The notes under the pieces: generated by a model
The model's database searches: none
Told to the model about the DNA's origin: nothing
What the model saw: the letters and a program-made list of their open reading frames with translations, nothing else
In this document: positions 2,841-22,829 of the stretch, one piece after another
Position numbering within the stretch: position 1 is the first letter of the stretch
Layout: every line of letters begins with the position of its first letter
Program-made: the position numbers and the translations under genes
Origin: Maribacter flavus
Lineage (GTDB): Bacteria > Bacteroidota > Bacteroidia > Flavobacteriales > Flavobacteriaceae
Length of the DNA stretch: 64,000 nt
NCBI RefSeq assembly: GCF_008386635.1
Contig: NZ_VUOE01000001.1
Location: forward strand, 558,001-622,000
Direction of reading: 5' to 3'

Positions 2841-2860
2841 ACTATCTCATAAAGTGTGTA
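2841..2860. repeat. Left terminal inverted repeat of the IS256-like element
   Basis: ACTATCTCATAAAGTGTGTA. It matches the reverse complement of 4151-4170 at 17 of 20 positions. The flanking 8-mer AAAAAAGA sits at 2830-2837. Confidence 0.85.
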
Positions 2861-2865
2861 AATAG

Positions 2866-2897: not shown

Positions 2898-2924
2898 TTG
2901 TCTATTTTTAAATATTTGCACATT

Positions 2925-4122: not shown

Positions 4123-4150
4123 TAAAGTCAAACCCCCGTTATTTTCAACT

Positions 4151-4170
4151 TACACACTTATTGGGATAGT
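4151..4170. repeat. Right terminal inverted repeat of the IS256-like element
   Basis: TACACACTTATTGGGATAGT. It is the complement of the left end with three mismatches. The second copy of the 8-mer AAAAAAGA follows at 4174-4181. Confidence 0.85.
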
Positions 4171-4177
4171 GTCAAAA

Positions 4178-7519: not shown

Positions 7520-7819
7520 TTAAAATCGAGACCTTCTGATAAAAGCATTTTTTCGAGCCAAGTCCAATAACTCTTTTTTAGAAAAGAAAATAGCCCTTCC
7601 AATTTGATAATAGGGCACAATTTTTTTCTTCTTCCAACTGATCAATGAGGTCACCGAGATGCCCAAGAATTTGGCCGCTTCCTGTTGGGTGAGCCTATCG
7701 TCCTCAGGATTGATAGAAGTCTCGTTTATTAATTCCGTTTTACGAAGTTCTTCCAAGACCATTTTTACGGTTCTTTTCAAATCCTCCTTCGTGTGCGTGT
7801 AGAAAAGTATATTTCCCAT
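7520..7819 (-). CDS. Excisionase-family HTH DNA-binding protein
   Basis: A 99-aa protein. The C-terminal half (LTQQEAAKFLGISVTSLISW then a basic stretch, YYQIGRAIFFSKKELLDLA) is the MerR-like helix-turn-helix of the excisionase/AlpA family, with the typical strand after the recognition helix. The N-terminal 40 residues are helical. It lies on the same strand as the E1 recombinase (9569-10804) and likely regulates or directs excision of E1. It ends in a basic tail (IRRSRF). Three TAGTGCA motifs lie just upstream. Confidence 0.85.
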   Translation of the reverse strand: MGNILFYTHTKEDLKRTVKMVLEELRKTELINETSINPEDDRLTQQEAAKFLGISVTSLISWKKKKIVPYYQIGRAIFFSKKELLDLARKNAFIRRSRF

Positions 7820-7887
7820 GTGTAGTGTATTTAAGCCGGGTGAAAAAGCCGGATACCTAAATTGGGAACAATTTGGAAAAACTGGGT

Positions 7888-7938
7888 TGCACTACAGGAA
7901 ATAGTGCATTAACCCTTTCAAACGTTCCATATAGTGCA
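7888..7938. promoter_or_regulatory. TAGTGCA repeats upstream of the E1 excisionase gene
   Basis: TGCACTA at 7888-7894 and TAGTGCA at 7902-7908 form a 7-bp inverted repeat with a 7-nt spacer. A further TAGTGCA lies at 7932-7938. They sit 69-119 bp upstream of the HTH gene's start and could be operator or excisionase-binding sites. This is inferred only from repetition and position. Confidence 0.4.
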
Positions 7939-7972
7939 ATAGTTGAGAGTAATGCAATTTTTGACGGTGCAC

Positions 7973-9451: not shown

Positions 9452-9568
9452 AAGCGATTCGTTTGAAAATAGTCTTATTCAAACGGGATTATTACAAAAA
9501 TCTTATATATATAATTGGAATAGAGCTAATTGACTGATTTTAAAATATATTTATTGAGAAAGACATAA

Positions 9569-10804: not shown

Positions 10805-10829
10805 ACTGTGTAAAGATATGAAACCTGAT

Positions 10830-10853
10830 AAAATAGGGGGCAAAATAGGGGGC
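10830..10853. repeat. Tandem 12-bp repeat near the E1 right end
   Basis: AAAATAGGGGGC is repeated exactly twice in tandem just upstream of the integrase start and about 110 bp inside the attachment sequence. Position and regularity suggest arm-type integrase or excisionase binding sites. Confidence 0.45.
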
Positions 10854-10964
10854 AGTATTTCTGTAAAAATTAAAAAAGTTTAATTTTATTGAACATCAAA
10901 AGCCCAATATACATCGATACTAAGGGGTATAAGTGCATAAAAGAAGGTTTAGGGTATATGGTAC

Positions 10965-11017
10965 TCCCGCCTCGAGTACAAAAACCCTTGTTAATCTTTT
11001 GATTTTCAAGGGTTTTT
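10965..11017 (+). repeat. Attachment-site repeat (E1/E2 junction), tRNA 3' end-like
   Basis: TCCCGCCTCGAGTACA followed by a terminator hairpin (AAACCCTTG ... CAAGGGTTTTT). The same 53-bp block recurs at 22,777-22,829 with four mismatches. The first part reads as the 3' strand of a TpsiC stem, an acceptor strand (CTCGAGT) and a discriminator A, typical of integration at a tRNA 3' end. The copy is flanked on its left by unrelated sequence, so it is not a complete tRNA. Confidence 0.8.
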
Positions 11018-11036
11018 TATTTTGTTGTTCAAAAAT

Positions 11037-11056
11037 TGTACGTATATCTGTACGTA
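11037..11056. repeat. TGTACGTA pair at the left end of E2
   Basis: TGTACGTA occurs at 11037-11044 and 11049-11056, a 12-bp period, 20 bp inside the left attachment repeat. A similar pair, TGTACGCAA, lies inside the right end (22,619-22,638). They are candidate arm-type integrase sites. Confidence 0.45.
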
Positions 11057-11083
11057 TGGATGAAATTAACAAGATTTAAACTT

Positions 11084-11305
11084 TTATTCCCCATCCATCA
11101 AAGGGTTCCAGTTCGCCTTTTTAAGGTCGGGTTTCAACTCCCTTAAAGCTTCGATAAGCCCCTCGTCGTTTTCATCCTCCGACCATCTAAAGACGGCCCG
11201 GAGAATATCCTCCATGTTGTCCCTGTAGATGTTGAAATGTGAGGTCGAGCCTCCCGAAATTCCCGAAGGCTTTTCCTTTGTCCTACTGATCCTGTATTTT
11301 TCCAT
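11084..11305 (-). CDS. Small hypothetical protein, paralog of the next gene
   Basis: A 73-aa acidic, tryptophan-containing protein. Residues from about 22 to 66 (HFNIYRDNMEDILRAVFRWS...) align with the neighbouring 86-aa protein (HFALDHDTLEDIAMAVYNWS...): both keep HF, D-x-[ML]-EDI, AV, WS-x-D, LI and PD. The two genes are therefore a tandem duplication. It is the leftmost gene of E2 and the last of a leftward small-gene operon. No known family is recognised. Small acidic proteins at the end of a repressor-controlled operon may be anti-restriction or host-takeover factors, but nothing in the sequence shows that. Confidence 0.65.
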   Translation of the reverse strand: MEKYRISRTKEKPSGISGGSTSHFNIYRDNMEDILRAVFRWSEDENDEGLIEALRELKPDLKKANWNPLMDGE

Positions 11306-11325
11306 TTATCGACCGATTAAAATAA

Positions 11326-11347
11326 GGCCCCTAAAAAATAAGGGGCC
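11326..11347 (-). terminator. Hairpin between two paralogous small genes
   Basis: GGCCCCT (11326-11332) and AGGGGCC (11341-11347) form a perfect 7-bp stem with an 8-nt loop. Read on the minus strand it is followed by TTATTTTAAT, so it may act as a partial terminator or attenuator between the 86-aa and 73-aa genes. Confidence 0.6.
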
Positions 11348-11357
11348 GTTGATGTTC

Positions 11358-11618
11358 CTAATATCCTGTAGCAATCTCGGATTCCGAACTGGATGTTTTA
11401 AGTTCGTGGGGCCGTCTATTGGCCCAGTCGATATCCGGTAATGTCCTTTCGAGTTCCTTGATGAGGTTGTCGTTGTCCGAGTCCTTCGACCAGTTATAGA
11501 CGGCCATCGCAATATCCTCCAATGTGTCGTGATCGAGCGCGAAATGCGTCTTGTTGCCGTTGAACTCCCCATGTCTTACCTCCTTTGATTTCCTGAAAAG
11601 ATGCTTTGTGTTTCCCAT
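11358..11618 (-). CDS. Small hypothetical protein, paralog of the previous gene
   Basis: An 86-aa protein with a basic N-terminus (GNTKHLFRKSKEVRHGEF) and an acidic core (LEDIAMAVYNWSKDSDNDNLI) that matches the adjacent 73-aa protein. It has no signal peptide, membrane segment or cysteine motif. The gene lies in the leftward operon that starts opposite the XRE repressor, 18 bp after the stop of the DUF2693-like gene, so it should be under repressor control. Function unknown. Confidence 0.65.
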   Translation of the reverse strand: MGNTKHLFRKSKEVRHGEFNGNKTHFALDHDTLEDIAMAVYNWSKDSDNDNLIKELERTLPDIDWANRRPHELKTSSSESEIATGY

Positions 11619-11636
11619 TGTATTTGTATTTAAAGA

Positions 11637-11942
11637 TTAATAGATCCTAATTAGATTACCGGCCCTGAAACTCCTGAAACCGTTGGCCTCTATATCGAAA
11701 TAGGCTACCGTCGATAGATTGCCCTTTCCGGTTCCCTTGATACCAAGTTCCCCTTTCAGCGTTCCCCATGCATATCTAAGACTGCCATCGGCTTTTTCGT
11801 AGGCGAACCTTACCTTATTTGATAACATGGCCTTTTTCAACCTATAACATTCCCATGCCTTTACCAAACAGATGGCGAAGGACTTTCCCGTTGACCTGGC
11901 GATCTCGTGCGCCCTTTTGAATACTTGGCTCCTGAATTTCAT
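11637..11942 (-). CDS. DUF2693-like SH3 beta-barrel protein
   Basis: A 101-aa protein. The second half (KVRFAYEKADGSLRYAWGTL, then YFDIEANGFRSFRAGNLIRIY) follows the pattern of DUF2693/SH3-barrel proteins that are common in Bacteroidota mobile elements: a V-x-F-x-Y-x-K-x-DGS-x-R-x-A-x-GTL strand pair and a final YFD...W/F-R-x-F. The N-terminal 45 residues are a basic helical region (AHEIARSTGKSFAICLVKAWECYRL). It lies 4 bp from the 79-aa gene upstream and is clearly in the same operon. Molecular role unknown. Confidence 0.7.
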   Translation of the reverse strand: MKFRSQVFKRAHEIARSTGKSFAICLVKAWECYRLKKAMLSNKVRFAYEKADGSLRYAWGTLKGELGIKGTGKGNLSTVAYFDIEANGFRSFRAGNLIRIY

Positions 11943-11946
11943 ATCG

Positions 11947-12186
11947 TTAAAATTTATCGTTTATGTAATCGGCAAACGCCCTCTTTGTAATTATGACCAC
12001 CGTTGAACCCTCGTTCGGGAAGTAGAAACATTTGTCGGCCCTCTCCTCGATTTCAAGAATGGCGTTACCAAGACCCCTCAAGGAATCGAACGTCCTTGCC
12101 TTTCCATCGATAACAAGTCTGGAGACCTTGCCCCTTAGCGTTCCGATATCGTTTCTTAGTTCCTTTTTCAGTTCTTTGATGTCCAT
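11947..12186 (-). CDS. Hypothetical protein, first gene of the repressor-opposed operon
   Basis: A 79-aa basic protein (MDIKELKKELRNDIGTLRGK...) with an amphipathic N-terminal helix and a C-terminal beta-rich part (TVVIITKRAFADYI). It begins 5 bp outside the operator array and is transcribed divergently from the XRE repressor, which is the place occupied by the first early gene in temperate phages and satellites. I recognise no family. It could be an antirepressor or Cro-like factor by position only. It has no clear HTH. Confidence 0.6.
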   Translation of the reverse strand: MDIKELKKELRNDIGTLRGKVSRLVIDGKARTFDSLRGLGNAILEIEERADKCFYFPNEGSTVVIITKRAFADYINDKF

Positions 12187-12191
12187 AATTA

Positions 12192-12291
12192 AATTATTAC
12201 ATTAATAATACTCTATAAATATAAGTATTACTTTAATATAATACAAGTTTTACTATAATTATTTTTACTTAAATTATAGTTTTACTTTAAT
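12192..12291. promoter_or_regulatory. Operator array: five copies of a 15-bp motif
   Basis: A 15-bp motif with consensus AAGTTTTACTTTAAT recurs at 12192-12206 (3 mismatches), 12223-12237, 12245-12259, 12260-12274 (3 mismatches) and 12277-12291, all in the same orientation. It fills the gap between the divergent XRE repressor and the leftward operon. The array overlaps the positions expected for both promoters, so it is the likely binding region of the repressor. Confidence 0.65.
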
Positions 12292-12295
12292 TTAC

Positions 12296-12303
12296 TACCT
12301 TTG
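12296..12303 (+). promoter_or_regulatory. Promoter -7 element of the XRE repressor
   Basis: TACCTTTG fits the Bacteroidota -7 consensus TAnnTTTG exactly and lies 16 bp before the repressor ATG, giving a very short leader. No clear -33 TTG is present. The last operator copy ends four bases upstream, which would allow autoregulation. Confidence 0.55.
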
Positions 12304-12319
12304 TATTAAATCTTAGATT

Positions 12320-12622
12320 ATGGAACTATTGAGATTAAAGGATATCATGGCCCAAAAAGGGGTGTCCGGTAAGGAACTGGCGAAATCCGTAGGGGTTACG
12401 CCCGTATCGATAAGTAATATAGTCCAGGGGAACAGCTTTCCAAAACCTGAATTGTTGTTGGCCATTGCCGACCGTCTCGATGTGGATGTAAGGGAACTGT
12501 TCAATCCTACCAAAAAGGGAAGCGTAGGGAACCTCAACGGCTTTGTTGAGCACAATGGGGAGATCCATAGAATAACATCCCTTGAGGATTTACGGGTTTT
12601 GATGGATAGGGTCGAAGGTTAA
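12320..12622 (+). CDS. XRE-family transcriptional repressor of E2
   Basis: A 100-aa protein with a classic Cro/CI-type helix-turn-helix at residues 5-60 (LKDIMAQKGVSGKELAKSVG, then VTPVSISNIVQGNSFPKPELL). A short C-terminal part (NGFVEHNGEIHRITSLEDLR) may serve in dimerisation or sensing. It is the only rightward gene in the left part of E2 and faces the leftward operon across the operator array. By position it is the master repressor keeping the element quiescent. Its last codons overlap the convergent 279-aa gene by 4 bp. Confidence 0.88.
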   Translation: MELLRLKDIMAQKGVSGKELAKSVGVTPVSISNIVQGNSFPKPELLLAIADRLDVDVRELFNPTKKGSVGNLNGFVEHNGEIHRITSLEDLRVLMDRVEG

Positions 12623-13458
12623 TCCTTTAAGTACTCGATGAACTTTATCGCTAGACCAGTAGGTCTGTTGTTTTTAAATTCGCCAGTATCGCTTATCCTT
12701 CCAGCGCTGGGATTGAAAATAAGGCCCATTGAAACTAATTCGGCTTCCATGAACTCTTTCATGTCTGGGTTAAAATTAAGTAGAATCGATTCCCTTTCAT
12801 TGAAAATATTCTGGACTCTTTGGTTGTTTTCCGAAACGGATTTACTGTTATTATCGAATTGAATATCAAAGTACATCTTTTCAATTTTAGGTAAATCCTG
12901 TTCACCTAATTTTTTAGCTTTTGCAAAAGCATCTTCCCTTTGGCTTGTATGCTTTTCCTTTTCGGTGTTCAATTCTCCAAGATTTTTAAATAACGTGTTA
13001 AGTTCCTTTTGTGATTCTACAAAATGACCTAACACCAAAACTTGACTATCCGTCAAGGACCCGGCCAAATTCAAAAACTTCTCAACATAATCGAACTCGG
13101 TCGGTTCTATTATTTGATTCTTGATAATATTCTTGAGCCTTTTAATCCTTTCCTCATTATTGTTTCTGGAAGCCTTGACCATTGCCAGTTCCACCAAGTC
13201 CCAAGTGGTTGTCTTGTCTATTTTGGAAAGGTCATAGCTATCGGTCAAAATTTTAAGGTCCCTTTCCAGAAGTTCAAAAAACTTGAATACCCTATCTTGT
13301 TTTACCTTGGATTGCATACTCAACATTTCAGTAAGGAAATTACCTAGTACCATACCCGAAAAAGGATCCCCGGTCAATGCCGTTGTAGCGGTACCACCGA
13401 ATATCGTTATGACCGTTGAAAATGCCTTTTTATAATTGTCCTTCTCCTCCTCTTTCAT
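12619..13458 (-). CDS. Hypothetical protein with Gly-rich hydrophobic N-terminus
   Basis: A 279-aa protein. Residues of about 13-45 (VITIFGGTATTALTGDPFSG...) are hydrophobic and glycine-rich and may insert in or lie on the membrane. Helical, Lys/Glu-rich sequence follows, including a likely coiled coil (about 145-180, ...LGELNTEKEKHTSQRED...). The start abuts the stop of the 78-aa gene, so the two are translationally coupled. No family is recognised. Together with the 78-aa partner it forms a two-gene cargo module, a position where satellites often carry phage-defence genes. That role is only a guess. Confidence 0.6.
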   Translation of the reverse strand: MKEEEKDNYKKAFSTVITIFGGTATTALTGDPFSGMVLGNFLTEMLSMQSKVKQDRVFKFFELLERDLKILTDSYDLSKIDKTTTWDLVELAMVKASRNNNEERIKRLKNIIKNQIIEPTEFDYVEKFLNLAGSLTDSQVLVLGHFVESQKELNTLFKNLGELNTEKEKHTSQREDAFAKAKKLGEQDLPKIEKMYFDIQFDNNSKSVSENNQRVQNIFNERESILLNFNPDMKEFMEAELVSMGLIFNPSAGRISDTGEFKNNRPTGLAIKFIEYLKD

Positions 13459-13695
13459 TCAAAACGATTTAGGAACGTTACTATATCTATCCAGTGAACC
13501 GCCCTCGACGAACGAACCTATTTCCAGAATTTTGTTCATTGGCGAATCGTACATCACTTCGACCCAGAAATAGGAAAGTGAATAAAGGGCATAGGTTATC
13601 CTACCATCCTTTACACTATCGACGAACTGACCATTTGTAAATACGGTATCGTATTTATCGTGATCGCTTAGAGAGTTGAATTCGTAGATTCCCAT
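13459..13695 (-). CDS. Small hypothetical protein coupled to the 279-aa gene
   Basis: A 78-aa protein rich in Tyr, Asp and Ser (MGIYEFNSLSDHDKYDTVF...). It looks like a compact beta fold, with ITYALYSLSYFWVEVMYD as a probable strand pair. There is no signal peptide or membrane segment. The stop codon directly touches the start of the 279-aa gene, so the pair is one operon. The size and coupling are like those of a toxin-antitoxin or immunity partner, but no motif supports a specific function. Confidence 0.55.
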   Translation of the reverse strand: MGIYEFNSLSDHDKYDTVFTNGQFVDSVKDGRITYALYSLSYFWVEVMYDSPMNKILEIGSFVEGGSLDRYSNVPKSF

Positions 13696-13851
13696 AGATT
13701 TTCTTCCTTAAGTGGCTTATGCCCCTGTACCAAAATGTACACCCTTTAATTAATCAAGTAATATAAGATTTCATCCCTATTTACCGGAAATTGACTCGTT
13801 CTAAATTAAGGGAATTTATGTTAAACTATCGACCCGAAATGATTGGCTTTT

Positions 13852-13859
13852 TAAATTTG
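13852..13859 (+). promoter_or_regulatory. Candidate promoter -7 element
   Basis: TAAATTTG matches TAnnTTTG and lies 32 bp before the ATG of the rightward 101-aa gene. No -33 TTG is visible at the usual distance, so the call is tentative. Confidence 0.35.
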
Positions 13860-13891
13860 GATAATTTCCAATTAATCGGATATTTTCCAAA

Positions 13892-14197
13892 ATGCGATCA
13901 GAGAAATACGACCTTACAAAAGAGGAACTTGATAAATGGATAAAGGACGCCTGTTTAAAGGCCATAGGTTATTTGAAGGTCGAGAACTATGGGGGCAAAT
14001 ACGCACTAGTGGAAAAGGGAATCTATACCGTGGTCGACCGGGGCCATGAGGTCGAACATAAGAAATCAAGGGAAGCGATTTACTCCATCTTTTCAAGGTT
14101 GATAAACCGATACCTCAACTTTGAGAGAAACGGTTACTCCTACCATTACAACAAAGGTTCATGGAGAAGGTGCAAGCTAAACACGGTAACGAAATGA
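13892..14197 (+). CDS. Hypothetical protein (E2 cargo, rightward)
   Basis: A 101-aa basic protein (MRSEKYDLTKEELDKWIKDA...) with a helical N-terminal half, a central beta stretch (YALVEKGIYTVVDRGHEVEH) and an aromatic, basic end (NRYLNFERNGYSYHYNKGSW). It has no signal or membrane segment. Apart from the repressor it is the only rightward gene in E2, with a possible promoter of its own, and is therefore likely expressed in the integrated state, as is typical of cargo. The family is unknown to me. Confidence 0.6.
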   Translation: MRSEKYDLTKEELDKWIKDACLKAIGYLKVENYGGKYALVEKGIYTVVDRGHEVEHKKSREAIYSIFSRLINRYLNFERNGYSYHYNKGSWRRCKLNTVTK

Positions 14198-14220
14198 TTA
14201 TTTAGAACGTTTTTAAATAA

Positions 14221-15075
14221 CTAAACCCCCATTGGAAGTCCCTCGTACACGTCCAACATCAGTTCACATTTTTGGATTTCGTTTCGAAGGCTGTCTATTT
14301 GGATTTGAAGTTCCTTTGTTCCTTCATTTGCCGGAGCAACTGATTGAACGGTTTGCGCATCGTTTTTAAAGTAATGTCCTACCACAACGAAAAGACCTAT
14401 CAAAAACGAAAAGCAAGTCAAGTAAAATAGCACATTCGAAGCCGAGTAGAAAAACCACATCCTCTTGGGTTTATTGACCTTTTTATTTATTTCTACCCCT
14501 TTGTCACCTAAAATGCCCCTTAAGGTTTCTTTGAATACCTCGGTTTCCATTGCCAATCGGCTAAGTTTTATCTCATCGTATTTTTCGACCAGTCTTGTAC
14601 GAATCTGCTCTTTATCGGTTTCCCAATTTAACCCCACAAAATCGGATTCATCTGCGATGTGCCCAAAATCTTCCATTAGGTATCGGATTACCTCTTCCAA
14701 AGTGGTATTGTTCGGGTCTACATCTCTGGAGTATACAATATCATCCGGTAAATTATACCCTAGAACATGACTATCAAAGGTCATAAGCACATCCAATTGA
14801 TATTGGGCGAACAACGATAACGATATTCTGTAAAGTAGGCCGAAAAGGACGGTAGCGGCACCAAAAAACACTACATAGGCGGATATACTTTCAACAAATG
14901 GATTTGATTCTGATATGGCCCCAATTATTAAGGTAATTGCGGTTATGGAAAAACCCACGAGCCAGACTATTATCCTATCCCATTTTTCATTCTGTTCGTT
15001 ATAATTCTTAAGATTTTCCTTTACGCTTTTATTGGAACTGGTCAATAAAAACTTTTGAAAGTTGAGGTCGGACAT
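14221..15075 (-). CDS. Three-TM membrane protein with C-terminal coiled coil
   Basis: A 284-aa inner-membrane protein. TM helices lie at about 35-54 and 66-83, a soluble domain at about 90-205, a third TM at 214-234, and a C-terminal coiled coil at about 253-276 (ELQIQIDSLRNEIQ). The first two TMs form a hairpin. No pore, transporter or enzyme motif was recognised. It lies 22 bp after the lipoprotein gene and is probably co-transcribed with it. Membrane proteins with coiled-coil sensors are frequent among abortive-infection effectors and superinfection-exclusion proteins, so a defence role is possible but unproven. Confidence 0.65.
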   Translation of the reverse strand: MSDLNFQKFLLTSSNKSVKENLKNYNEQNEKWDRIIVWLVGFSITAITLIIGAISESNPFVESISAYVVFFGAATVLFGLLYRISLSLFAQYQLDVLMTFDSHVLGYNLPDDIVYSRDVDPNNTTLEEVIRYLMEDFGHIADESDFVGLNWETDKEQIRTRLVEKYDEIKLSRLAMETEVFKETLRGILGDKGVEINKKVNKPKRMWFFYSASNVLFYLTCFSFLIGLFVVVGHYFKNDAQTVQSVAPANEGTKELQIQIDSLRNEIQKCELMLDVYEGLPMGV

Positions 15076-15097
15076 TTACCTATATTTTAAATGATTG

Positions 15098-15343
15098 CTA
15101 ATCCCTATCACACCCTTCCTTTACTGATCTGGCCTGTAATTGTTCGGCCGATTTGTTCTCTATAACTGGTAATGAGGTGGAGCGGTCAATCTGCAGCCCC
15201 GTCTCATCACATAATTGGATAAAGTGTAGGTTTGAAATCCCAGGGCTTTCCGTTCCCGCCTTTACTTGTGTACATCCACAATCATCGTCATTTGAACAGG
15301 ATAGTAATAATACAAAGACGGCCAAAAACATTAGATTTCTCAT
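15098..15343 (-). CDS. Small lipoprotein
   Basis: An 81-aa protein with a lipoprotein signal peptide (MRNLMFLAVFVLLLSC) and lipidated Cys16. Residues after the cysteine (SNDDDCG) resemble the Asp-rich surface-export signals of flavobacterial lipoproteins, so it may face the outside. The mature part is short, contains a second Cys pair (CGC), and matches no known family. It is encoded just ahead of the three-TM protein. A mobile element exporting a surface lipoprotein together with a membrane protein suggests superinfection exclusion, which is inference. Confidence 0.65.
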   Translation of the reverse strand: MRNLMFLAVFVLLLSCSNDDDCGCTQVKAGTESPGISNLHFIQLCDETGLQIDRSTSLPVIENKSAEQLQARSVKEGCDRD

Positions 15344-15478
15344 GTTCTACAAATATAATTTAAGGGGAAGTTCTGAAAGATATGTCTTAATGCCTTAGAA
15401 TCCAATACTCGGCTTGTGTTTCGCTCAAAAATGGACATAAGGTCAATATTACCTAACGGGTTTAGGCCCGATACTATA

Positions 15479-15492
15479 TTCCAAAATTGGAA
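15479..15492. repeat. TTCCAAAATTGGAA site, copy 1
   Basis: A 14-bp inverted repeat (TTCCAA-AA-TTGGAA) upstream of the lipoprotein gene. Identical copies lie at 16,705-16,718 and 21,647-21,660. It may be a regulator-binding site common to E2 transcription units. Confidence 0.4.
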
Positions 15493-15543
15493 CATAGTAC
15501 ATATCAAAAACAAACGCGGGTAATGACTTCGGATAAACCTTGG

Positions 15544-16089
15544 TTAATGTGATCTGGTTATTCTTGACTCTACAACTAGGTAATTGTCCTGCACGTTCAA
15601 TTGCCGTATTGAAAAATGGTATTTCCTATGTGTATAAAATTGGTTCGGCCTGTTATCCTTTCCAAAGTAGGGTTCTGCAAAAAAGGTCTGTTCATAAAAC
15701 CCGGCCAAAACCTTATTTGAATACTCCAGCCCCTCCAATTGGGCAACGTTGTCCGGTACATTGACTTCCATATCAAAAGAGGTTCCTTCGTATGGATGTT
15801 CAAACCTAACTATCTGCTCATTGATTGGTACTAACGTTGTCCATGGATAAACGGGTTCCGTATTGTCCGACCTGATTATGAAGTTTCGGGAAGTACGCCC
15901 TTTAGGGGTATACAAACGGTAAACCCCGATTCTAATGGATATTGGGAAATGTTTGTCTTCGGTTGCCATCTTTGGAAGACCCCCCCAACTGGACGTTATC
16001 CGTATTCCGATTCTTCCATTTATTAATCCACCTTGGGGCGTTGTCTCAAAGCCTGCACCGCCACCGCCAAGATTTATTTCTTCTGCCAT
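15544..16089 (-). CDS. Hypothetical beta-rich protein
   Basis: A 181-aa protein with a Gly-rich N-terminus (MAEEINLGGGGAGFETTPQG). A largely beta-strand body follows (RIGIRITSSWGG, FPISIRIGVYRLYTP). There is no signal peptide. It is the third gene of the cluster that begins with the small-terminase-like protein, with 5 bp to the gene before it. By position it could be a late gene of the element, such as a morphogenesis or packaging accessory protein, but no homology supports this. I do not recognise it. Confidence 0.6.
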   Translation of the reverse strand: MAEEINLGGGGAGFETTPQGGLINGRIGIRITSSWGGLPKMATEDKHFPISIRIGVYRLYTPKGRTSRNFIIRSDNTEPVYPWTTLVPINEQIVRFEHPYEGTSFDMEVNVPDNVAQLEGLEYSNKVLAGFYEQTFFAEPYFGKDNRPNQFYTHRKYHFSIRQLNVQDNYLVVESRITRSH

Positions 16090-16094
16090 GATAT

Positions 16095-16385
16095 TTATTT
16101 TATTGGTTCGCTGAAATCCTGAAATTGAACATGGATCAGGAATGAGACCAGGTCATAGTTTTTCTCGACCTCCATTACCTCATCGACATTATAAATGTTC
16201 CTTTCCCCTTCCTTTTTTATGGGGTCTATAAACAAAGCGAATTTCCTTTCCGTCTCCGCATCGGGGAAATAACCCTCATTGGAGCCAAATTCGCTATTGA
16301 ACATCCCTACCGAAAACTTATTGGTAAGGTTCTTTGTCAACATTAGGAACTCAAGTTCCATTGCACGCCTAGTCGAAGTATCCAT
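16095..16385 (-). CDS. Hypothetical protein overlapping the TerS-like gene
   Basis: A 96-aa protein with a helical N-terminus (MDTSTRRAMELEFLMLTKNL) and an acidic, mixed C-terminal half (NVDEVMEVEKNYDLVSFLIH). Its start lies within the end of the 101-aa small-terminase-like gene, a 17-bp overlap in a different frame, so it is translationally coupled to that gene. No family is recognised. Its context suggests a partner of the TerS-like protein or of the 181-aa protein. Confidence 0.6.
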   Translation of the reverse strand: MDTSTRRAMELEFLMLTKNLTNKFSVGMFNSEFGSNEGYFPDAETERKFALFIDPIKKEGERNIYNVDEVMEVEKNYDLVSFLIHVQFQDFSEPIK

Positions 16386-16674
16386 CCGCTTCCAGTTTTG
16401 ATTTTAGTTCCCTTATCCTGATCAATCTCTCCTCTTGTGTCATGTTCATGGTGTCGTCGACCATTTCGGTCCGGTTGAGTTTTGGAAGGGCGTACTCCAT
16501 GAGTTTGATAAAGGTATCGACCCTGTCCTTTGGGTGTAAAGAGGAAATATCCTCTAAAACCTGATCCCATCTATCCTCCAGAAGTTGGTTTACCTTGTCC
16601 CTTAAAAGGGCCGTGTTCCTGTTCGGTGTCCCTTTTGTCCTTCCACCGTATTTTTTTCCCGTGGTATTTGCCAT
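16369..16674 (-). CDS. Small-terminase-like / DUF5681-like protein
   Basis: A 101-aa protein. The N-terminus (KKYGGRTKGTPNRNTALLRDK) carries the GGR-x-KGTPN motif seen in phage-borne DUF5681-type and small-terminase-like proteins of Bacteroidota. It is followed by a helix (VNQLLEDRWDQVLEDI) and a segment HPKDRVDTFIKLMEYALPKL, all typical of that phage family as I recall it. It would bind DNA through the basic N-terminus. It is the first gene after the origin, with a TTCCAAAATTGGAA site 31 bp upstream. A terminase small subunit without large subunit or capsid genes is a hallmark of phage satellites, but the assignment is tentative. Confidence 0.6.
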   Translation of the reverse strand: MANTTGKKYGGRTKGTPNRNTALLRDKVNQLLEDRWDQVLEDISSLHPKDRVDTFIKLMEYALPKLNRTEMVDDTMNMTQEERLIRIRELKSKLEADGYFD

Positions 16675-17036
16675 AACTATTTCAAACTATTTTAGTTTTC
16701 TTCCTTCCAAAATTGGAAGAAACCTTGATTTTTCCATTTTTCATTACGGTCGGTTGTAATGCATTACGACCGATATGACAACCTATTTTAGGTCTAAACC
16801 CCCGTTACTACTGGGTTCATGACATCCATTACGACCGTTTTGTATATTCTTACTACTTATTATTAAAAAATGTTTTTTTACTACTATATTTTTTATTTTT
16901 TACGTGTACGTACAATAGGATTAGGTTGTAATGGATGTCATCAGACCAATAAACACGGGGCTTAACACGGATTTAGAGGTTGTAATGAGGTCGTAATGGA
17001 TGTCATCAGACCAATAAACACGGGGCTTTGAGGTTG
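16675..17036. other. Putative replication origin with iterons
   Basis: 362 bp without a gene, directly after the replicase. The 10-mer GGTYGTAATG occurs six times: forward at 16752, 16924, 16978 and 16989, reverse at 16762-16771 and 16827-16836. The pair at 16752-16771 is head-to-head. Truncated copies (GGTTGTCAT) lie at 16775-16783 (reverse) and 17032-17040. A 36-bp exact direct repeat occupies 16928-16963 and 16993-17028. About 16840-16915 is a very AT-rich stretch suited to unwinding. Iterons, an AT-rich stretch and an adjacent replicase are the features of a replication origin. A TTCCAAAATTGGAA site sits at 16705-16718. Confidence 0.7.
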
Positions 17037-19436
17037 TCATTCCTCTACCCATTTCCTTTTATCCGACCTATATTTATACTCCAGTTGGTTCTTTTCGATA
17101 TAATCGTTCATCAATCTTTTGACGTTGTTCTTATGGAACCACCCCTCGAACCTGAATCGATTACCTATGTCCTTATACTGGTTTAAAAAATCACTTACAG
17201 AGAATCCTTCATAATTGTCCTTTATATTATTGAATATCCGTTCGAATTCATCCAGAAAAGCATCGTTGTTGAAATTGGCCCGGAAATTGTCCTCCGTCTT
17301 ATCATATTCCATTGGCCGTAAACCATGGATAAAATATTCCTTCACACACCTGAAAATGAAAGAATAAAACCTATCCCACTCCTTTTTGTCCCAATCAATG
17401 AACAACTTTCTACCGAATACTTTCTTTGGTGTGTTTTCCAGATTGAAATAATCCGAGAACTGCCACTCATAAAAACGTCTATTGGTAGAACTGGCATCGG
17501 AATCATACCTGACCGACCAATTTGTTGTTATTATGAATTTTGGGGTTCTCTCCTTGGATATGGAGACCGCGTTAACGCCCTTTAACTGACAAGTAATGTC
17601 CCCTGTTATGTTCGTATAAATGGAATCATAGGGAAAATTAGGGGGAACATCGTCTATCACATAAATTCTATGGCTTTCGTTGAGTTCTGCAAATACATGC
17701 CTGTATTTTGGGTCGAACTCATCACCCCCTTTTATCATGGATTTTTGGACATAACCGAAAGCACCTGCAAGTATGCTTTTCCCCCTCCCACCGTTCCGGC
17801 TTTCGTCGTTGGCTCCCTTATCGCTGAATATCTGGGCAATTGAATCTGACGGGTCCTTAAACCCGTGTACACAATATCCGATCATTGTTCGCCACTTGGA
17901 AAAACTGGTCGTATCGTTGCCTTTTAAGTTTGTGAAGGAATCAATCCCTGTTGAAACCATCATTACGAATTTTTCGAAATCGCCTACCTCATCGGTATAT
18001 TCGAATTCGTGCGATTGGGTATGGTGTGGAGGGAAAAAACCATTTACATCCTTATATTCCTTCCTCTTTATACCGTCCTTCGAACGCTCCATAAAAAAGA
18101 ACCCATTATTAAAAGCTAGCCCGAAGCTATCCTCATCGTCCTGATAGTATTCCAAAGGAATGGGCTTCATAAGGATCAACCCCCCAGGAATAACGTTTCT
18201 GTTATCCTTGGCAAGTCTATTCTGTATATCGGTATCGTCAAACTCGCAGATATCGGCCTTTAACATTGGAACGATGTCCGTTTTGTGGTTCACGGGGTCG
18301 ATTATCTTGTTGTCCCCCTTGAATATCGTAATGGTGTCGTTACCTTTAATTGAGGCCCTAATAAAATCCTCTTGCAAAAACCAGTCGTGATAAAGTTTTT
18401 CCGAGGTTACCAAAGCCCCTTCGGAATCATAGTGATAGAAGTTCTTTTTGGTGTTGACGATTTCCGGTTTTATACATTCCTTGACCGTGAACTCTACATC
18501 GCATATTTTCAATTCAGAACATTCGACATTTTCCTTAACGAAAATCCCATCGTGTAACCTTACATAGTTCTGTAATCCATTTGCCTCGACGAATTTATTT
18601 ATGGCCTCCTCCTCATATTTTACGATATCATTGAACATACCTCCTTTCTGAAAGAACCTTTTTTCAGTAACTACCTCATCGATTCTATCCTTATAGATTG
18701 GCCTTAAGACATCCCTTACATAATCTATCGTTACATCTTCGTTTTCAGAATGAAGGTTTAGGGTCCTTAGGAATTTATCCTTATCTATTAAGGAATAGAC
18801 ATCTTCCTTCCTTTTTAAACCAAGTTCATTGTCGATAAAAGTCGGGTACGCCCTTTTTATATCGTACTCCTTGACCTTGAACGGGAGTTCGCCTCTTAGG
18901 ACTCCGGGTAGATTGGCCAATGGGTTGTACTCCCTATGGTTTTTTGACTTGACCTTGAAAAGAACATCGAATTCCGGCCTATACAATCCTTCCAGCTTGA
19001 GCATCATAAATAGTACATACCTTTCATAGGATGATTTATTAAAGGTGTGCTCCCCATCCTTATCGAATTCCCTGTAATATTTATGAAGCTTCTTAATATC
19101 GTGCCTAAAGAACTTTTCCGGGAGGGTTTTTCCGTTCTGATAACTTGAGACGTATTTAAAATAATCGTTCCTGTCCAAAGGATTTGATCCTATGAAACCT
19201 ACATACTGGATCATGACATCGTCGATTCTCTTTCTTAATCCCTTGCTCCTCTTGATTGCATCCGAAAGATTGAAGTCCCTTTTCTTTGAATTCACCTCTG
19301 ACAATATCCTTTCGGTAAAGCCTACCTTCCAGTTATCGACCAAGTCCCGCCAATTTTCAGGGGTGCCAAAGTCGTTAAAAACCTTATAAGCCTCCTCAAG
19401 GTGTACATCCGATATTTTTCTTACTGATTGGCCCAT
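17037..19436 (-). CDS. Replicase: polymerase-like domain fused to SF3 helicase
   Basis: A 799-aa protein. The C-terminal half is a superfamily-3 helicase: Walker A NGGRGKS (548-554), Walker B IYVIDDV (591-597), motif C FIITTNW (634-640) and an arginine finger in TNRRFYEW (about 653). The N-terminal half has YDIKRAYPTF (191-200, like polymerase motif A with Asp192) and RLHDGIFV (293-300, like motif C of family A polymerases with His295-Asp296). This pairing resembles the TV-Pol primase-polymerases fused to SF3 helicases in mobile elements and Sputnik-like viruses. It probably initiates and drives replication from the adjacent origin. The helicase is certain and the polymerase assignment is inference. 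Confidence 0.85.
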   Translation of the reverse strand: MGQSVRKISDVHLEEAYKVFNDFGTPENWRDLVDNWKVGFTERILSEVNSKKRDFNLSDAIKRSKGLRKRIDDVMIQYVGFIGSNPLDRNDYFKYVSSYQNGKTLPEKFFRHDIKKLHKYYREFDKDGEHTFNKSSYERYVLFMMLKLEGLYRPEFDVLFKVKSKNHREYNPLANLPGVLRGELPFKVKEYDIKRAYPTFIDNELGLKRKEDVYSLIDKDKFLRTLNLHSENEDVTIDYVRDVLRPIYKDRIDEVVTEKRFFQKGGMFNDIVKYEEEAINKFVEANGLQNYVRLHDGIFVKENVECSELKICDVEFTVKECIKPEIVNTKKNFYHYDSEGALVTSEKLYHDWFLQEDFIRASIKGNDTITIFKGDNKIIDPVNHKTDIVPMLKADICEFDDTDIQNRLAKDNRNVIPGGLILMKPIPLEYYQDDEDSFGLAFNNGFFFMERSKDGIKRKEYKDVNGFFPPHHTQSHEFEYTDEVGDFEKFVMMVSTGIDSFTNLKGNDTTSFSKWRTMIGYCVHGFKDPSDSIAQIFSDKGANDESRNGGRGKSILAGAFGYVQKSMIKGGDEFDPKYRHVFAELNESHRIYVIDDVPPNFPYDSIYTNITGDITCQLKGVNAVSISKERTPKFIITTNWSVRYDSDASSTNRRFYEWQFSDYFNLENTPKKVFGRKLFIDWDKKEWDRFYSFIFRCVKEYFIHGLRPMEYDKTEDNFRANFNNDAFLDEFERIFNNIKDNYEGFSVSDFLNQYKDIGNRFRFEGWFHKNNVKRLMNDYIEKNQLEYKYRSDKRKWVEE

Positions 19437-19669
19437 CTGTACATCCTTTTTAATCCTTCCTTGGGGCCATGCCCTTTTAACTTCAAAATCTCGTCTACCA
19501 GTTCACTAAGCATTTTTTTATCGTTGAACACATCGACCGGAATTACAACATCGGCAAGGAACTTGTTACCAAGCTTCATCTTTACGAAAACATGGATACC
19601 CGATATAGTGAACAGCGGTTTTACCGTTACCTTTCTTGTGCCTGGGTATTCGTTTAGGTCTACTTTCAT
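19421..19669 (-). CDS. Hypothetical protein between regulator and replicase
   Basis: An 82-aa protein starting at MKVDLNEYPGTRKVTV. I choose ATG 19669 because it overlaps the stop of the upstream gene (ATGA), while the longer frame to 19741 would overlap that gene by 76 bp. It is a mixed alpha/beta protein with a basic tail (GLKRMYRWANQ). Its end overlaps the replicase start by 16 bp, so the three genes form one tightly coupled operon. Function is unknown. Position suggests a replication accessory factor. Confidence 0.6.
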   Translation of the reverse strand: MKVDLNEYPGTRKVTVKPLFTISGIHVFVKMKLGNKFLADVVIPVDVFNDKKMLSELVDEILKLKGHGPKEGLKRMYRWANQ

Positions 19670-20064
19670 TTTTTCAGGGATTTTATGAGTTCGACGTCCG
19701 ATGTAAGAAACTGTACTCCTGTACTCCCGGTTGTGGGGCATTTACCTAGATAGGCCACGGCCAATTCACCCGATTTTTCCAGTTGTCTTTTGATTTGGCA
19801 AACATATTTCTGCTTTACCCCGGTAAGCTTCTCTATTGTCGCTGCGGTTGTGGGTTCCGTTGAGGTAGCCTGTAAAACCCTTCTAATGGCATCCTGTCTG
19901 AAGATTTCCTTATACGATGGAAAACCAAAGCTTTGCGCTATCGTTTTGTGTTCCTTTACGTTAGGATGGAATTTAAGACTATCGAGGTAGGAAATTAATT
20001 TTTGTTTGCTATCTTTAACCCTGTTACCGTCTAAAGCATTAGGGTTGTTACTATTGTCCTCCAT
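19666..20064 (-). CDS. Winged-helix-like protein (E2 replication operon)
   Basis: A 132-aa protein. The C-terminal half (TTAATIEKLTGVKQKYVCQI, then KRQLEKSGELAVAY) looks like a winged helix-turn-helix, with the final strands LGKCPTTGSTGVQFLTS as the wing. The N-terminal part is hydrophilic. It starts 4 bp after the AlpA-like gene and overlaps the next gene by an ATGA, so it belongs to the same operon. It may be a regulator or a DNA-binding replication factor. The exact family is not recognised. Confidence 0.6.
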   Translation of the reverse strand: MEDNSNNPNALDGNRVKDSKQKLISYLDSLKFHPNVKEHKTIAQSFGFPSYKEIFRQDAIRRVLQATSTEPTTAATIEKLTGVKQKYVCQIKRQLEKSGELAVAYLGKCPTTGSTGVQFLTSDVELIKSLKK

Positions 20065-20068
20065 TAGT

Positions 20069-20350
20069 TCAACCCTTTTTTAATTCAACCATTGCATCCT
20101 CAACCTCCGACCTTTTATAGTAGACCCTACCCCCTATTTGATGAGCGGTCAAGATTGATTTTTTTGTCCAGTTGTGAACAGTTGACAAATCGATTTGAAG
20201 CATTTCGGCCACTTGAGATCTTGTCAAAAATTGTGTGGGTTCCTTGGGCTGGAAATTCTTTTTCAATTCCTGAATCTGGTTTCTTACACCTTCAAGGATT
20301 GACTTCTGTAGCTGTTCAGGTGTTACCTGAATGAATTGGATTTGTTGCAT
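20069..20350 (-). CDS. AlpA/excisionase-like HTH protein of E2
   Basis: A 93-aa protein. A MerR-like helix-turn-helix at about 40-88 (FLTRSQVAEMLQIDLSTVHN, then WTKKSILTAHQIGGRVYYKR, SEVEDAM) marks it as the excisionase/AlpA family. The N-terminal 35 residues are a helix, possibly for oligomerisation. It sits 81 bp downstream of the RteC-like gene and heads the replication operon. AlpA proteins of phage satellites activate integrase and excision, so it is a good candidate for the factor linking induction, excision and replication. Confidence 0.85.
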   Translation of the reverse strand: MQQIQFIQVTPEQLQKSILEGVRNQIQELKKNFQPKEPTQFLTRSQVAEMLQIDLSTVHNWTKKSILTAHQIGGRVYYKRSEVEDAMVELKKG

Positions 20351-20431
20351 AATTGAACATTATTACAGGATTAATAATGCTCAAATTTCAATAGGATTAA
20401 ACCCCTTGAAAGGATACTTACCAGTAAGTTA

Positions 20432-21172
20432 CTAGCGATTTTTTTCTGAAGTAGAGGCAATGTACTCCTTAAGAGACTTCCTTAAATCATCTATAAATTT
20501 TGTCTCGTTTTCGGAAATTCTATTTTTAAATCCTGATATAGTTTTATCTTGATTTAACTCCAAACCGAATATATTTTCAAAAACCTTAAAAATTTCCTTC
20601 TGCTGTCCCTTAAGATTTCCATTTTCAATCAAGGCCTTAACCAATTCAATCAAGTTGCTTTTGTCCCCGTGCCAGTCCAAAAGCTGGCTGGTCTGTCCCG
20701 ATCCGTTTGAGTTATAAGTAAATTTAGGAAGACCATATTTGTCTTCCGATTCTTTTATTTCATACCCTAATTGCTTGGCTTTTTCAAACAAGAATGAATA
20801 AGTTCTTTTCCTTGAAAACCTTATTTTCTTTCCTATTTCATCATAACGTCCGGGGTAAAAATCCGGTAAAATAGCGAATTGGTACATTTCGTCTATAATA
20901 AAATCGACTTCCAAAGAATCAGGAAACTTTTTATTGTATTCTTGGGCCCTTGTGTTGTAATGAGACCTATAAACTTCAAAAGGACAACCGTTAAAAACTT
21001 CCTTTTTATTAATGAGTTCCTGATATTCCGCTTCGAATATATTTTTCAATTCCAAACCGTTCTCCTCCTCCCACACAATCTTTTCAATTTCAATCTGCTC
21101 TTTATCACTATGTGAATCCCATTTAAGATGTTCAGGGAAATACATAAAAACCATAGTCTTTTCAAATGCCAT
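20432..21172 (-). CDS. RteC-like protein
   Basis: A 246-aa protein. The last 60 residues (KGQQKEIFKVFENIFGLELN, ISENETKFIDDLRKSL) show the pattern of the C-terminal domain of RteC-family proteins of Bacteroidota mobile elements: F-x-x-I/F-K-x-R followed by TKF-[IL]-D-x-L-x-x-x-L. The N-terminal 150 residues are unlike the classic RteC and contain a Tyr/Phe-rich stretch (FAILPDFYPGRYDEIGKKI). RteC regulates excision of CTnDOT. Here the gene lies 12 bp after the integrase and 81 bp before the AlpA-like gene, so a similar control function is likely. Confidence 0.65.
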   Translation of the reverse strand: MAFEKTMVFMYFPEHLKWDSHSDKEQIEIEKIVWEEENGLELKNIFEAEYQELINKKEVFNGCPFEVYRSHYNTRAQEYNKKFPDSLEVDFIIDEMYQFAILPDFYPGRYDEIGKKIRFSRKRTYSFLFEKAKQLGYEIKESEDKYGLPKFTYNSNGSGQTSQLLDWHGDKSNLIELVKALIENGNLKGQQKEIFKVFENIFGLELNQDKTISGFKNRISENETKFIDDLRKSLKEYIASTSEKNR

Positions 21173-21184
21173 ATCTAGTGTTAT

Positions 21185-22561
21185 TTAATTAGCAATATTT
21201 TCCTTAACTACTTCCAAATTCCCAGACCTTTCCTTTCTAAGTTTCTGCAAATCGTAAAAATCCTTTATTTGCCTTGCATAGTCAAGAGAGTTTTTTCCTA
21301 TGTACTGCAAAAGCATTTTTTCCGTTGAGTGTTGGGTTATCTGCATTATCAAAGGTGTCGGCAATATACCATAGAGATTTGTAGCAAAGGAACGTCTACA
21401 GACATGACTGGACATGAGTTCATACTTTGGGAACGTTCCTGAAATCTTCCTTTTGACGCCTTTTGCGATATATTCGCCTTTATCGTTTCTAGGTATCTCG
21501 ACCCCATCCTTATCCAACATGGTTATCTTGCTACCTTTGACCCTTTCATCTATTCCCGCCCTTCTACATAGTTCCTTGATATACTTGTTGAGGTTTTGGA
21601 TTGCGATGGGTTCCGGTAGACCGTCCTTTAATATTGCCTCGGTTTCTTCCAAAATTGGAATAGTTACTTGTTTTCCTGTCTTTTGTTGTTGGATCTCGAT
21701 TACCTTAAGGCCGTCCCTTTCAATGAAATTGTCCTTTGAAATATTCAGTAAATCCCCTCCACGCTGTCCGATATTGCACCCAAAAAGCAGCCATTTACGG
21801 GCATTTTCCAAATATGGGGGCAACAACTTTAAAAACTTAATCGCATTGATTTCTTGATTGTCCAAATATAGGATTTGATTGTTGCCGGGCTTACCTCCCT
21901 TTACCTTGGATAATTGGGTATTGACTTCCAGCCCATCGGTTAGGGCATCCCTACAAACTGTTTTTAGATCATCGATTTTTTTACGAGCATAACTTTCTGA
22001 ATAATTGGACTTATTTATCATCCAATCAAGAAAAGCCTTACCAAAGGAAACATTCACGTCCTTTACTCGATAGGGACTTTTGTTCCCCTGGTAGGTTCTG
22101 ATAATCTTAAGAAGGTTTTTATAGGAGTTGATACGGCTTTTTGAAAGACCCAGCCCCTTTTTACCGTTCTCCCTTATGTTGGCCGTATCGATTAAATATT
22201 GAATACAGTCGGTCAATTTATCGCTACGGACCTCATCTTCGGTATTTGGGTTGTCGTATTCAAAAACTTTAGTTTTTAACCAGTCCTTATCTTCCCGGCT
22301 AGGTTTTTCCTTTTTGTAGAAGCTTAGGACATAATTTTCTATTCCGGCAAGTTTTCCATGTACTTCTGAAATTTCGTTTTTGTCATGCCCCGAAAGGTTC
22401 CGTTTCTTATGTCTGGTAACCTTCCAGAATTCCTTTGACACTTCGATTTCGGTCTTGGCCTCTAACTGGAATTTTTCTCCATTATCATCTTTGTCCTGTA
22501 GCCTAATGGTCAATGGTGCCGATTGCTTGCTAGATCGATACAAAAAATAGATTGTTGCCAT
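21185..22561 (-). CDS. Tyrosine recombinase/integrase of element E2
   Basis: A 458-aa integrase with the complete catalytic set: Arg267 (IGQRGGDLL), Lys294 (QQKTGK), His386-x-x-Arg389 (SHVCRRSF), His411 (TQHSTEK) and nucleophile Tyr420. The N-terminal part is an arm-binding domain and residues of about 115-215 form the SAM-like core-binding domain. It differs clearly from the E1 integrase in sequence, yet both lie in the same orientation beside the same attachment sequence. A TTCCAAAATTGGAA copy lies inside its coding region (21,647-21,660). The start at 22,561 is the only Met near the conserved N-terminus. Confidence 0.95.
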   Translation of the reverse strand: MATIYFLYRSSKQSAPLTIRLQDKDDNGEKFQLEAKTEIEVSKEFWKVTRHKKRNLSGHDKNEISEVHGKLAGIENYVLSFYKKEKPSREDKDWLKTKVFEYDNPNTEDEVRSDKLTDCIQYLIDTANIRENGKKGLGLSKSRINSYKNLLKIIRTYQGNKSPYRVKDVNVSFGKAFLDWMINKSNYSESYARKKIDDLKTVCRDALTDGLEVNTQLSKVKGGKPGNNQILYLDNQEINAIKFLKLLPPYLENARKWLLFGCNIGQRGGDLLNISKDNFIERDGLKVIEIQQQKTGKQVTIPILEETEAILKDGLPEPIAIQNLNKYIKELCRRAGIDERVKGSKITMLDKDGVEIPRNDKGEYIAKGVKRKISGTFPKYELMSSHVCRRSFATNLYGILPTPLIMQITQHSTEKMLLQYIGKNSLDYARQIKDFYDLQKLRKERSGNLEVVKENIAN

Positions 22562-22618
22562 AAGAAGTTATTACCTGTCTTTCAAATTTAACAAAAATCA
22601 ATGGTGGAAAATCAAAAT

Positions 22619-22638
22619 TGTACGCAATTTGTACGCAA
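22619..22638. repeat. TGTACGCAA pair at the right end of E2
   Basis: TGTACGCAA at 22619-22627 and 22630-22638, an 11-bp period, between the integrase start and the right attachment repeat. They mirror the TGTACGTA pair inside the left end and may be arm-type integrase sites. Confidence 0.45.
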
Positions 22639-22776
22639 GTTATCAACTTATTTAAAGTTTATTCAATTACAATAAACAAGATAAAAAATACCTAAGTAGT
22701 TGTATCTATTGAAACTAAAACAGGAAAGACCCTTTTTCCTAGCATTTGTCAAAATATAAAAATGGAAGTATTCAAG

Positions 22777-22829
22777 TCCCGCCTCGAGTACAGAAACCCT
22801 TGTTAATCAACTGATTTTCAAGGGTTTTT
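22777..22829 (+). repeat. Right attachment-site repeat of E2, tRNA 3' end-like
   Basis: The second copy of the 53-bp block, with four differences from the copy at 10,965. Just before it the sequence reads TTCAAG, so together TTCAAGTCCC looks like a TpsiC loop and stem. The acceptor-like CTCGAGT, an A and a terminator hairpin (AAACCCTTG...CAAGGGTTTTT) follow. The tail resembles flavobacterial tRNA-Leu genes, but this cannot be assigned without the 5' part. The remaining sequence up to 23,002 is AT-rich and holds the promoter region of the next gene. Confidence 0.75.

Follow-up and report, generated by a model that had tools for sequence, protein, structure and literature searches.

The E2 locus and its borders

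The 64,000-nt stretch of Maribacter flavus DNA analysed here, below called the window (contig NZ_VUOE01000001.1, positions 558,001 to 622,000), holds at positions 10965–22829 a compact element, E2, which is a site-specifically inserted unit in a tRNA-Leu(TAA) gene. We consider E2 to be probably a phage satellite of the Flavobacteriaceae that is built on the plan of the phage-inducible chromosomal islands (PICIs) and is likely to work like one of them. A preliminary description of the window had already seen in it a Bacteroidota counterpart of these islands, and that reading is now strengthened by a terminase small subunit (TerS) with phage-type relatives, by compact elements that share its replicase and show no recognised relaxase, by an empty site in a congener and by a virion gene in one relative. 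From the integrase (int) inward, the gene order is int, an RteC-like gene, an HTH_17/AlpA-like gene, a winged-helix-like gene, the replicase, iterons, TerS, two unassigned open reading frames (ORFs) and cargo; at the far end, after the cargo, stand an XRE gene on the opposite strand, a WYL_2 protein gene and small ORFs. The features are listed below with window coordinates; L numbers denote related loci introduced further on.

22777–22829: right attachment repeat of E2, from repeat comparison
21185–22561, minus strand: tyrosine integrase, 458 aa (PF13102, 5.7e-9; PF00589, 4.8e-7; phrog_216, 6.5e-21)
20432–21172, minus strand: RteC-like protein, 246 aa (PF09357, 6.8e-11)
20069–20350, minus strand: AlpA/excisionase-like HTH_17 protein, 93 aa (PF12728, 1.6e-10; phrog_66 excisionase/regulator, 7.3e-10)
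19666–20064, minus strand: winged-helix-like regulator, 132 aa, fold by eye (blastp 29–34% in L066, L068, L071, L072 and L073)
17037–19436, minus strand: replicase, 799 aa, with N-terminal family-A/TV-Pol-like polymerase motifs and a C-terminal D5/SF3 helicase
16752–17028: predicted replication origin, GGTYGTAATG iterons and an 82% AT core at 16837–16923
16369–16674, minus strand: TerS, 101 aa (TerL adjacency of viral relatives; MW202710; the G198 element)
16095–16385, minus strand: ORF after TerS, 96 aa, no family matched
15544–16089, minus strand: cargo ORF, 181 aa, from the ORF list; unrelated to ORFs at the same place in relatives
14221–15075, minus strand: membrane protein-like cargo, 284 aa, by eye (PADLOC PycTM, 0.021, not significant)
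13892–14197, plus strand: cargo ORF, 101 aa (38% over 93 aa to an ORF of L068)
13459–13695, minus strand: cargo ORF, 78 aa (62% in L066, 28% in L068)
12619–13458, minus strand: cargo ORF, 279 aa, family searches without assignment
12320–12622, plus strand: XRE repressor, 100 aa (HTH_3, 2.8e-10; 63% homologue in L066)
12197–12291: candidate operators ahead of XRE, an array of near-matches to TTACTWTAAT
11947–12186, minus strand: ORF, 79 aa (relative in L066, 38% over 52 aa)
11637–11942, minus strand: WYL_2 protein, 101 aa (PF10902, 1.2e-19; 66% homologue in L066)
10965–11017: left attachment repeat of E2 and E1/E2 junction, 16 nt of the tRNA-Leu(TAA) 3' end plus terminator

The 53-bp direct repeats of the preliminary description are present at 10965 and 22777, with 49 of the 53 positions identical (90% identity over 58 nt), and set the length of E2, from repeat start to repeat start, at 11,812 bp. 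The core of the repeat, TCCCGCCTCGAGTACA, is the 3' end of the tRNA-Leu(TAA) gene, of which the repeats contain the last 16 nt, and a terminator-like hairpin follows. Because a third copy, together with the tRNA-Leu(TAA) gene itself, lies at C1:532722, outside the window and 36 kb upstream of E2, E2 is the second unit of a tandem whose first unit, E1, of about 36 kb, lies to its left and has its own integrase at window positions 9569–10843; in pairwise comparison, the three copies share 50, 50 and 49 of 53 positions. The G+C content of E2 is 39%, against 43% on its right side. In one congener (G009), the flanks join at a single repeat copy behind tRNA-Leu(TAA), with 187 bp separating the matched stretches, and by this alignment the locus is the empty tRNA-Leu site of E2. 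The site is nearly empty in another genome, G030, where a second, diverged core lies 169 bp further on.

The family searches bear out the integrase at one end of E2, the AlpA-like helix-turn-helix gene and the RteC-like gene. The XRE repressor is likewise borne out by its HTH_3 match; the operator array claimed with it stays a candidate, consisting of six matches to TTACTWTAAT (at most one mismatch, two of them overlapping) upstream of XRE, a number that none of 500 shuffles reached for a motif picked post hoc. As had been claimed, structural and conjugation genes are missing from what could be recognised: several scans of the E2 proteins against Pfam and PHROGs yielded no relaxase, secretion, TerL, capsid, portal, tail or lytic gene, two of them with listings that cover 25 of 30 (Pfam) and 25 of 44 (PHROGs) matched families. 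Searches of the cargo with PADLOC and NCBIfam named no function and gave weak or generic matches only. The 96- and 181-aa ORFs were considered as members of families seen after TerS elsewhere and rejected, the comparison finding no relation.

Origin and replicase

The iteron origin of the preliminary description is well visible: GGTYGTAATG occurs six times in the 64-kb window, against 0.27 expected, and all occurrences lie downstream of the replicase gene within 16752–16998, three at 16752–16836 and three at 16924–16998, around an 87-bp core of 82% AT at 16837–16923. In PICIs, the origin follows the replication gene and has an AT-rich stretch with a set of iterons on either side (PMC6092414, Fig. 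2 legend), and the predicted layout in E2 fits this rule. Repeated 9-mers downstream of rep also exceed shuffles in L065, L068 and L070–L073 (0 or 1 of 200); they are not notable against shuffles in L066, L067, L069 and L074.

For the replicase, the claimed fusion of a polymerase-like domain with an SF3 helicase holds for the helicase, which is D5-type by fold, and rests on motifs for the polymerase part. The full-length model (pLDDT 78.6, pTM 0.51) matches poxvirus D5/E5 helicase-primases, the African swine fever virus PrimPol, the SaPI5 primase-helicase (7ola, 4.2e-7) and NrS-1, as well as phage and virophage replicases; since the TM-scores are low and the alignments long, we read the part common to these matches as the D5/SF3 helicase only. 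By sequence, no match to solved structures was found up to E 1. The N-terminal part, modelled at pLDDT 88.1, has Pol I-type proteins as its best PDB matches, all non-significant (best E 0.085), and within the replicase family its motifs are conserved to different degrees: D192 and D296 (in H295-D296) in 11 of 11 members, R260 in 10 and K264 in 9. TV-Pol motifs consist of two aspartates and RxxxK (PMC2579912), and by these motifs the domain looks family-A/TV-Pol-like.

Elements that share the replicase

Full-length relatives of the replicase occur in 5 of 397 Flavobacteriaceae genomes, its own included, and a search of genome contigs gave ten further loci, four of them overlapping with the genome survey, at identities of 42–53% across genera. 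The carriers include F. xanthum, F. taihuense, F. plurextorum and Arenibacter catalasegens; two loci, L069 and L074, resemble each other on inspection by eye. In each of the 11 replicase elements, int is followed by an AlpA/HTH_17-like ORF and this by rep (the integrases of L065 and L068 identified by Pfam, some of the HTH ORFs assigned by place). The elements are compact, and most of them are flanked by repeats at a tRNA gene for Arg, Leu or Cys:

L065: 7.6 kb between repeats, tRNA-Arg
L066 (Arenibacter): 16.0 kb between repeats, tRNA-Arg
L067 (Mariniflexile): 13.9 kb between repeats, 14-nt match, no tRNA found
L070: 6.5 kb between repeats, tRNA-Leu, 14-nt match
L071: 6.1 kb between repeats, tRNA-Arg
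L072: 10.5 kb between repeats, tRNA-Leu
L073: 5.8 kb between repeats, tRNA-Cys, 13-nt match at the tRNA end

In L068, L069 and L074 the only matches were of 12–13 nt, and none of these was taken as a repeat pair. The Arenibacter element shares with E2 its XRE, WYL_2, 78-aa and 79-aa proteins at the identities listed above, and the position of the 132-aa winged-helix-like ORF is conserved in several relatives.

Eight elements with 82 ORFs were taken for family scans, in which 65 proteins were covered and eight integrases, eight replicases and one 60-aa ORF left out; three E2 ORFs were scanned in an alternative frame, and L066 was covered to the locus end, 0.2 kb short of the repeat. Pfam (E <= 1e-3) matched 30 families, and the 25 of these that were listed include neither relaxases nor type IV secretion components; type I restriction and Abi_2 families do appear in the scanned elements and were assigned to the Mariniflexile element by reading.

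A different reading, on which these scans bear, would make E2 an integrating plasmid or an integrative mobilizable element whose transfer depends on an oriT in cis and on the machinery of an integrative conjugative element or conjugative plasmid. RteC proteins occur in conjugative transposons of Bacteroides, and the NBU-type integrative mobilizable elements of Bacteroides combine a tyrosine recombinase with rte-type regulation; they also carry a mobilization protein, and in E2 none is recognised. The RteC-like gene of E2 lends this explanation some support. The ORF in its slot is highly variable among relatives (the compared ORFs being 16–23% identical), and the RteC match is found in E2 only, in one of the 65 proteins. 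Further support comes from a TerS-bearing element in G012, which adjoins a second integrase, a relaxase gene (PF03432, 4.1e-22) and a NikA-like gene; that relaxase, however, lies beyond the separate integrase, the families listed for the 65 proteins of the eight elements include none of conjugation, and TerS is not known to have a role in that process. On balance, we find a mobilizable element unlikely. The G012 locus itself (L092, G012:C44:26106-38615) is possibly a tandem of a satellite and a mobilizable element.

Virion proteins in relatives

In the PHROGs scan of the eight elements, the sole structural family among the 25 of 44 listed was phrog_15220, "virion structural protein", matched at 7.5e-94 by a 742-aa protein of the Arenibacter element (L066:13278-15506). 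The protein matches 28 phage records, the 15 listed being from phages of Polaribacter, Cellulophaga, Leeuwenhoekiella and Tenacibaculum; no relative of it was found in the viral contigs. In the phages phi19:1 and Nekkels_1 a homologue follows the tape-measure gene, and because of this position we infer that the protein belongs to the tail region, a step made weaker by the PHROGs class of the family, head and packaging. The homologue is marked in the phi19:1 record as detected by tandem mass spectrometry. A second case is a 624-aa protein of G170 that adjoins TerS and matches phrog_33803 (no function assigned, 1.6e-113) and phrog_23570 (virion structural, 1e-12); its match to a phage-tail Pfam domain is below the cut-off of that family.

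The preliminary description had named structural genes in complete relatives as a sign against a satellite. What was found is one virion gene in L066 together with no recognised capsid, portal or TerL gene, a combination more in keeping with a satellite than with a prophage.

The terminase small subunit

The TerS-like protein that had been claimed for E2 received its first clue from a phage relative in MW202710 that overlaps an annotated TerL, at an E-value of only 1e-3. When viral contigs were searched with two alignments, the first found 2 loci and the second 30, 32 in all, and TerL adjoins the TerS relative in 31 of these (27 by blastp of the full ORF and four, L115, L121, L125 and L144, by tblastn), L116 being the sole contig without it. 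Because its viral relatives adjoin TerL, the identity of the 101-aa protein as a phage-type TerS is well supported by gene neighbourhood. The exceptional contig, L116 (IMGVR_UViG_3300034171_000242; 14.4 kb, 11.4 kb of which were examined), encodes a tape measure protein of 1332 aa and a head-morphogenesis protein, besides a pair of TerS paralogues, of which one is 60% identical to the TerS of E2, and AlpA-like and wHTH-like proteins. No TerL was found in it; it is possibly a satellite with structural genes.

In chromosomes, a TerS match occurs in 16 of 296 relative genomes, E2 included, and 13 of the other 15 were examined (G187 and G249 being left out). Seven of the 13 loci lie in elements with int and AlpA (L092, L094, L095, L097, L100, L101 and L102), four are close to contig ends (L093, L096, L098 and L099), in L104 neither int nor TerL was seen, and for L103 no ORF matched. 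Together with E2 and a second element of F. xanthum (L153/L154), the seven make nine chromosomal int and AlpA elements with TerS, of which only L094 has TerL, as judged by blastp against 11 TerLs at 1e-4, for E2 by the family scans and for the L154 part of the F. xanthum element by eye. L094 (G198:C1:30197-42208) carries int, AlpA, an AAA ATPase, WYL_2 (PF10902, 3.7e-20) and TerS plus TerL (phrog_2, 4.5e-30); no capsid or portal was seen on inspection of its 12 kb by eye. The replication genes beside TerS differ, with D5_N/DUF5906 in L092, AAA_25 in L094 and others in L095, L097, L100, L101 and L102. The two F. xanthum elements have 67-aa and 176-aa ORFs in common (likeness by eye), and between these lies TerS in one and an unrelated 81-aa HTH-like ORF in the other, from which we infer that the packaging slot may be taken by different TerS types. 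This 81-aa ORF, a 125-aa ORF of Kriegella and a 240-aa ORF of an uncultured member of the Flavobacteriaceae, all in or near the TerS slot, gave no phage match and are TerS candidates by place only.

Two further explanations meet this evidence. E2 could be a decayed prophage that kept int, replication genes and TerS and lost TerL and the head and tail genes; TerS and D5-type replicases are, after all, phage genes, and the Arenibacter relative has a virion gene. Yet the same compact order with open frames recurs at 42–53% replicase identity across genera, in elements as small as 5.8 and 6.1 kb, and TerS stands beside several different replication genes, a pattern that decay would not predict; we hold a decayed prophage to be quite improbable. 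Alternatively, E2 could be a TV-Pol mobile element that replicates and spreads without phage particles and has TerS as passenger cargo. Its replicase motifs fit TV-Pol–D5 fusions (PMC2579912), and no TerS was recognised in 8 of 9 carrier genomes. TerS nevertheless recurs downstream of different replication genes and the virion gene in a relative points to phage particles, leaving TV-Pol spread with only a slim chance of being the explanation.

Relation to known systems and proposed mechanism

PICIs, which include the Staphylococcus aureus pathogenicity islands (SaPIs), resemble E2 in size, in the integrase at one end, in the AlpA-like regulator of the Gram-negative PICIs, in an origin placed after rep and built of two sets of iterons, in the TerS downstream and in having no recognised structural genes (as described in PMC6092414). 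Among the criteria used for PICIs, a small size of about 15 kb with an integrase and direct repeats at one defined site is matched by 11.8 kb at tRNA-Leu(TAA), an AlpA/MerR or Stl-type regulator by the HTH_17 protein (phrog_66), and the TerS homologue of some PICIs by the TerS of E2; the SaPI5 primase-helicase is, moreover, among the fold matches of the replicase. On the other hand, the XRE repressor of E2 is distal and not beside int, unlike Stl, the polymerase domain looks more like family A/TV-Pol than like a primase, there is an RteC-like gene, and the host belongs to a different phylum. As regulator layout and polymerase type differ, we call E2 PICI-like and refrain from placing it either inside or outside the PICI family. 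The TV-Pol mobile elements, proposed to be replicative transposons (Iyer, Abhiman, Aravind 2008, PMC2579912), appear to resemble E2 in their polymerase motifs (two Asp and RxxxK) and have, like it, a D5-like helicase and a phage-type integrase beside it; E2 differs in that it has a TerS and an AlpA-like gene, an origin with iterons and a tRNA gene as attachment site. Another comparable island is the 10K genomic island of the flavobacterial relative Riemerella anatipestifer (PMC6764341), which is 10 kb long and has 53-bp repeats at a tRNA gene and a tyrosine integrase, though at tRNA-Arg; its excised circle was detected by PCR, and the passages of that paper on mitomycin C and UV report no plaques.

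As a phage satellite, E2 would stay silent under the XRE repressor until an infecting or induced tailed phage brought about AlpA-dependent excision, upon which the replicase would fire from the iterons downstream of its own gene. The satellite TerS, acting with the TerL of the helper, would direct satellite DNA into helper virions, and after transfer the integrase would insert E2 into the same tRNA gene of the new cell; the cargo would probably serve competition with phages or benefit the host.

Several observations weigh against the satellite reading. Two scans found no replicase relatives in viral contigs, and near the second TerS-related match, a DUF5681 protein encoded by phage BF1-TP2, the annotation shows no TerL over 6 kb. 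The TerL ORFs adjoining TerS are alike and 388 aa long in 23 of 27 cases, so that the 31 viral contigs are not independent and come nearer to three or four cases. Among the Rep-family elements, a TerS was recognised by profile in E2 only (nine carrier genomes searched, L068 left out), F. xanthum being the sole further carrier genome with TerS, in another element. In its own genome, no TerL was found by PF03237, for which a control search was positive in 6 of 14 genomes, or by TerL profile A7, these being the families searched; the helper would therefore have to come from outside the cell, or be gone. A phrog_2 match in the same genome (6.8e-6) was rejected as TerL, the gene being PhoH (PF02562, 2e-92).

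The PICIs described so far come from Gammaproteobacteria and Gram-positive cocci (PMC6092414); other satellites, from Cyanobacteria and Actinobacteria, are mentioned in a review (PMC11389934). The main texts of PMC6092414 and PMC10111431 contain no Bacteroid- or Flavobact- names, and our literature search, with preprints outside it and absence in print not established, found no paper on PICI-like satellites of Bacteroidota among the hits listed. If E2 is what we think, TerS hijacking extends to another major phylum, the unexplained tRNA islands of flavobacteria gain a mechanism of mobility, and the restriction and Abi cargo of a relative ties such islands to phage defence; with named strains among the carriers, the satellite reading is testable. 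More speculatively, and with doubt prevailing, the PICI-like satellites of the Flavobacteriaceae may form a modular superfamily whose members freely swap rep and TerS types and of which some supply one virion protein themselves (the Arenibacter 742-aa and G170 624-aa proteins), in addition to redirecting packaging, thereby refitting the stolen particle and perhaps altering the cells that it reaches.

The tRNA-Leu site and the neighbouring element

One PICI criterion is that the site is never used by prophages. The tRNA-Leu site is also used by E1 and, in G034, by two repeat copies 85 kb apart (C62:15567 and C62:100383), occupants that may or may not be prophages, and within the genus it may be a hot spot for islands. 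E1 spans C1:532722-568965, so that window positions 1–10964 are its right end. By eye, it contains a C39-type ABC exporter (C1:549557), an HlyD-like gene, LanB/LanC-like ORFs and a GG-leader-like 66-aa peptide at 557665, and with the genes so named, E1 appears to carry a peptide-natural-product cluster.

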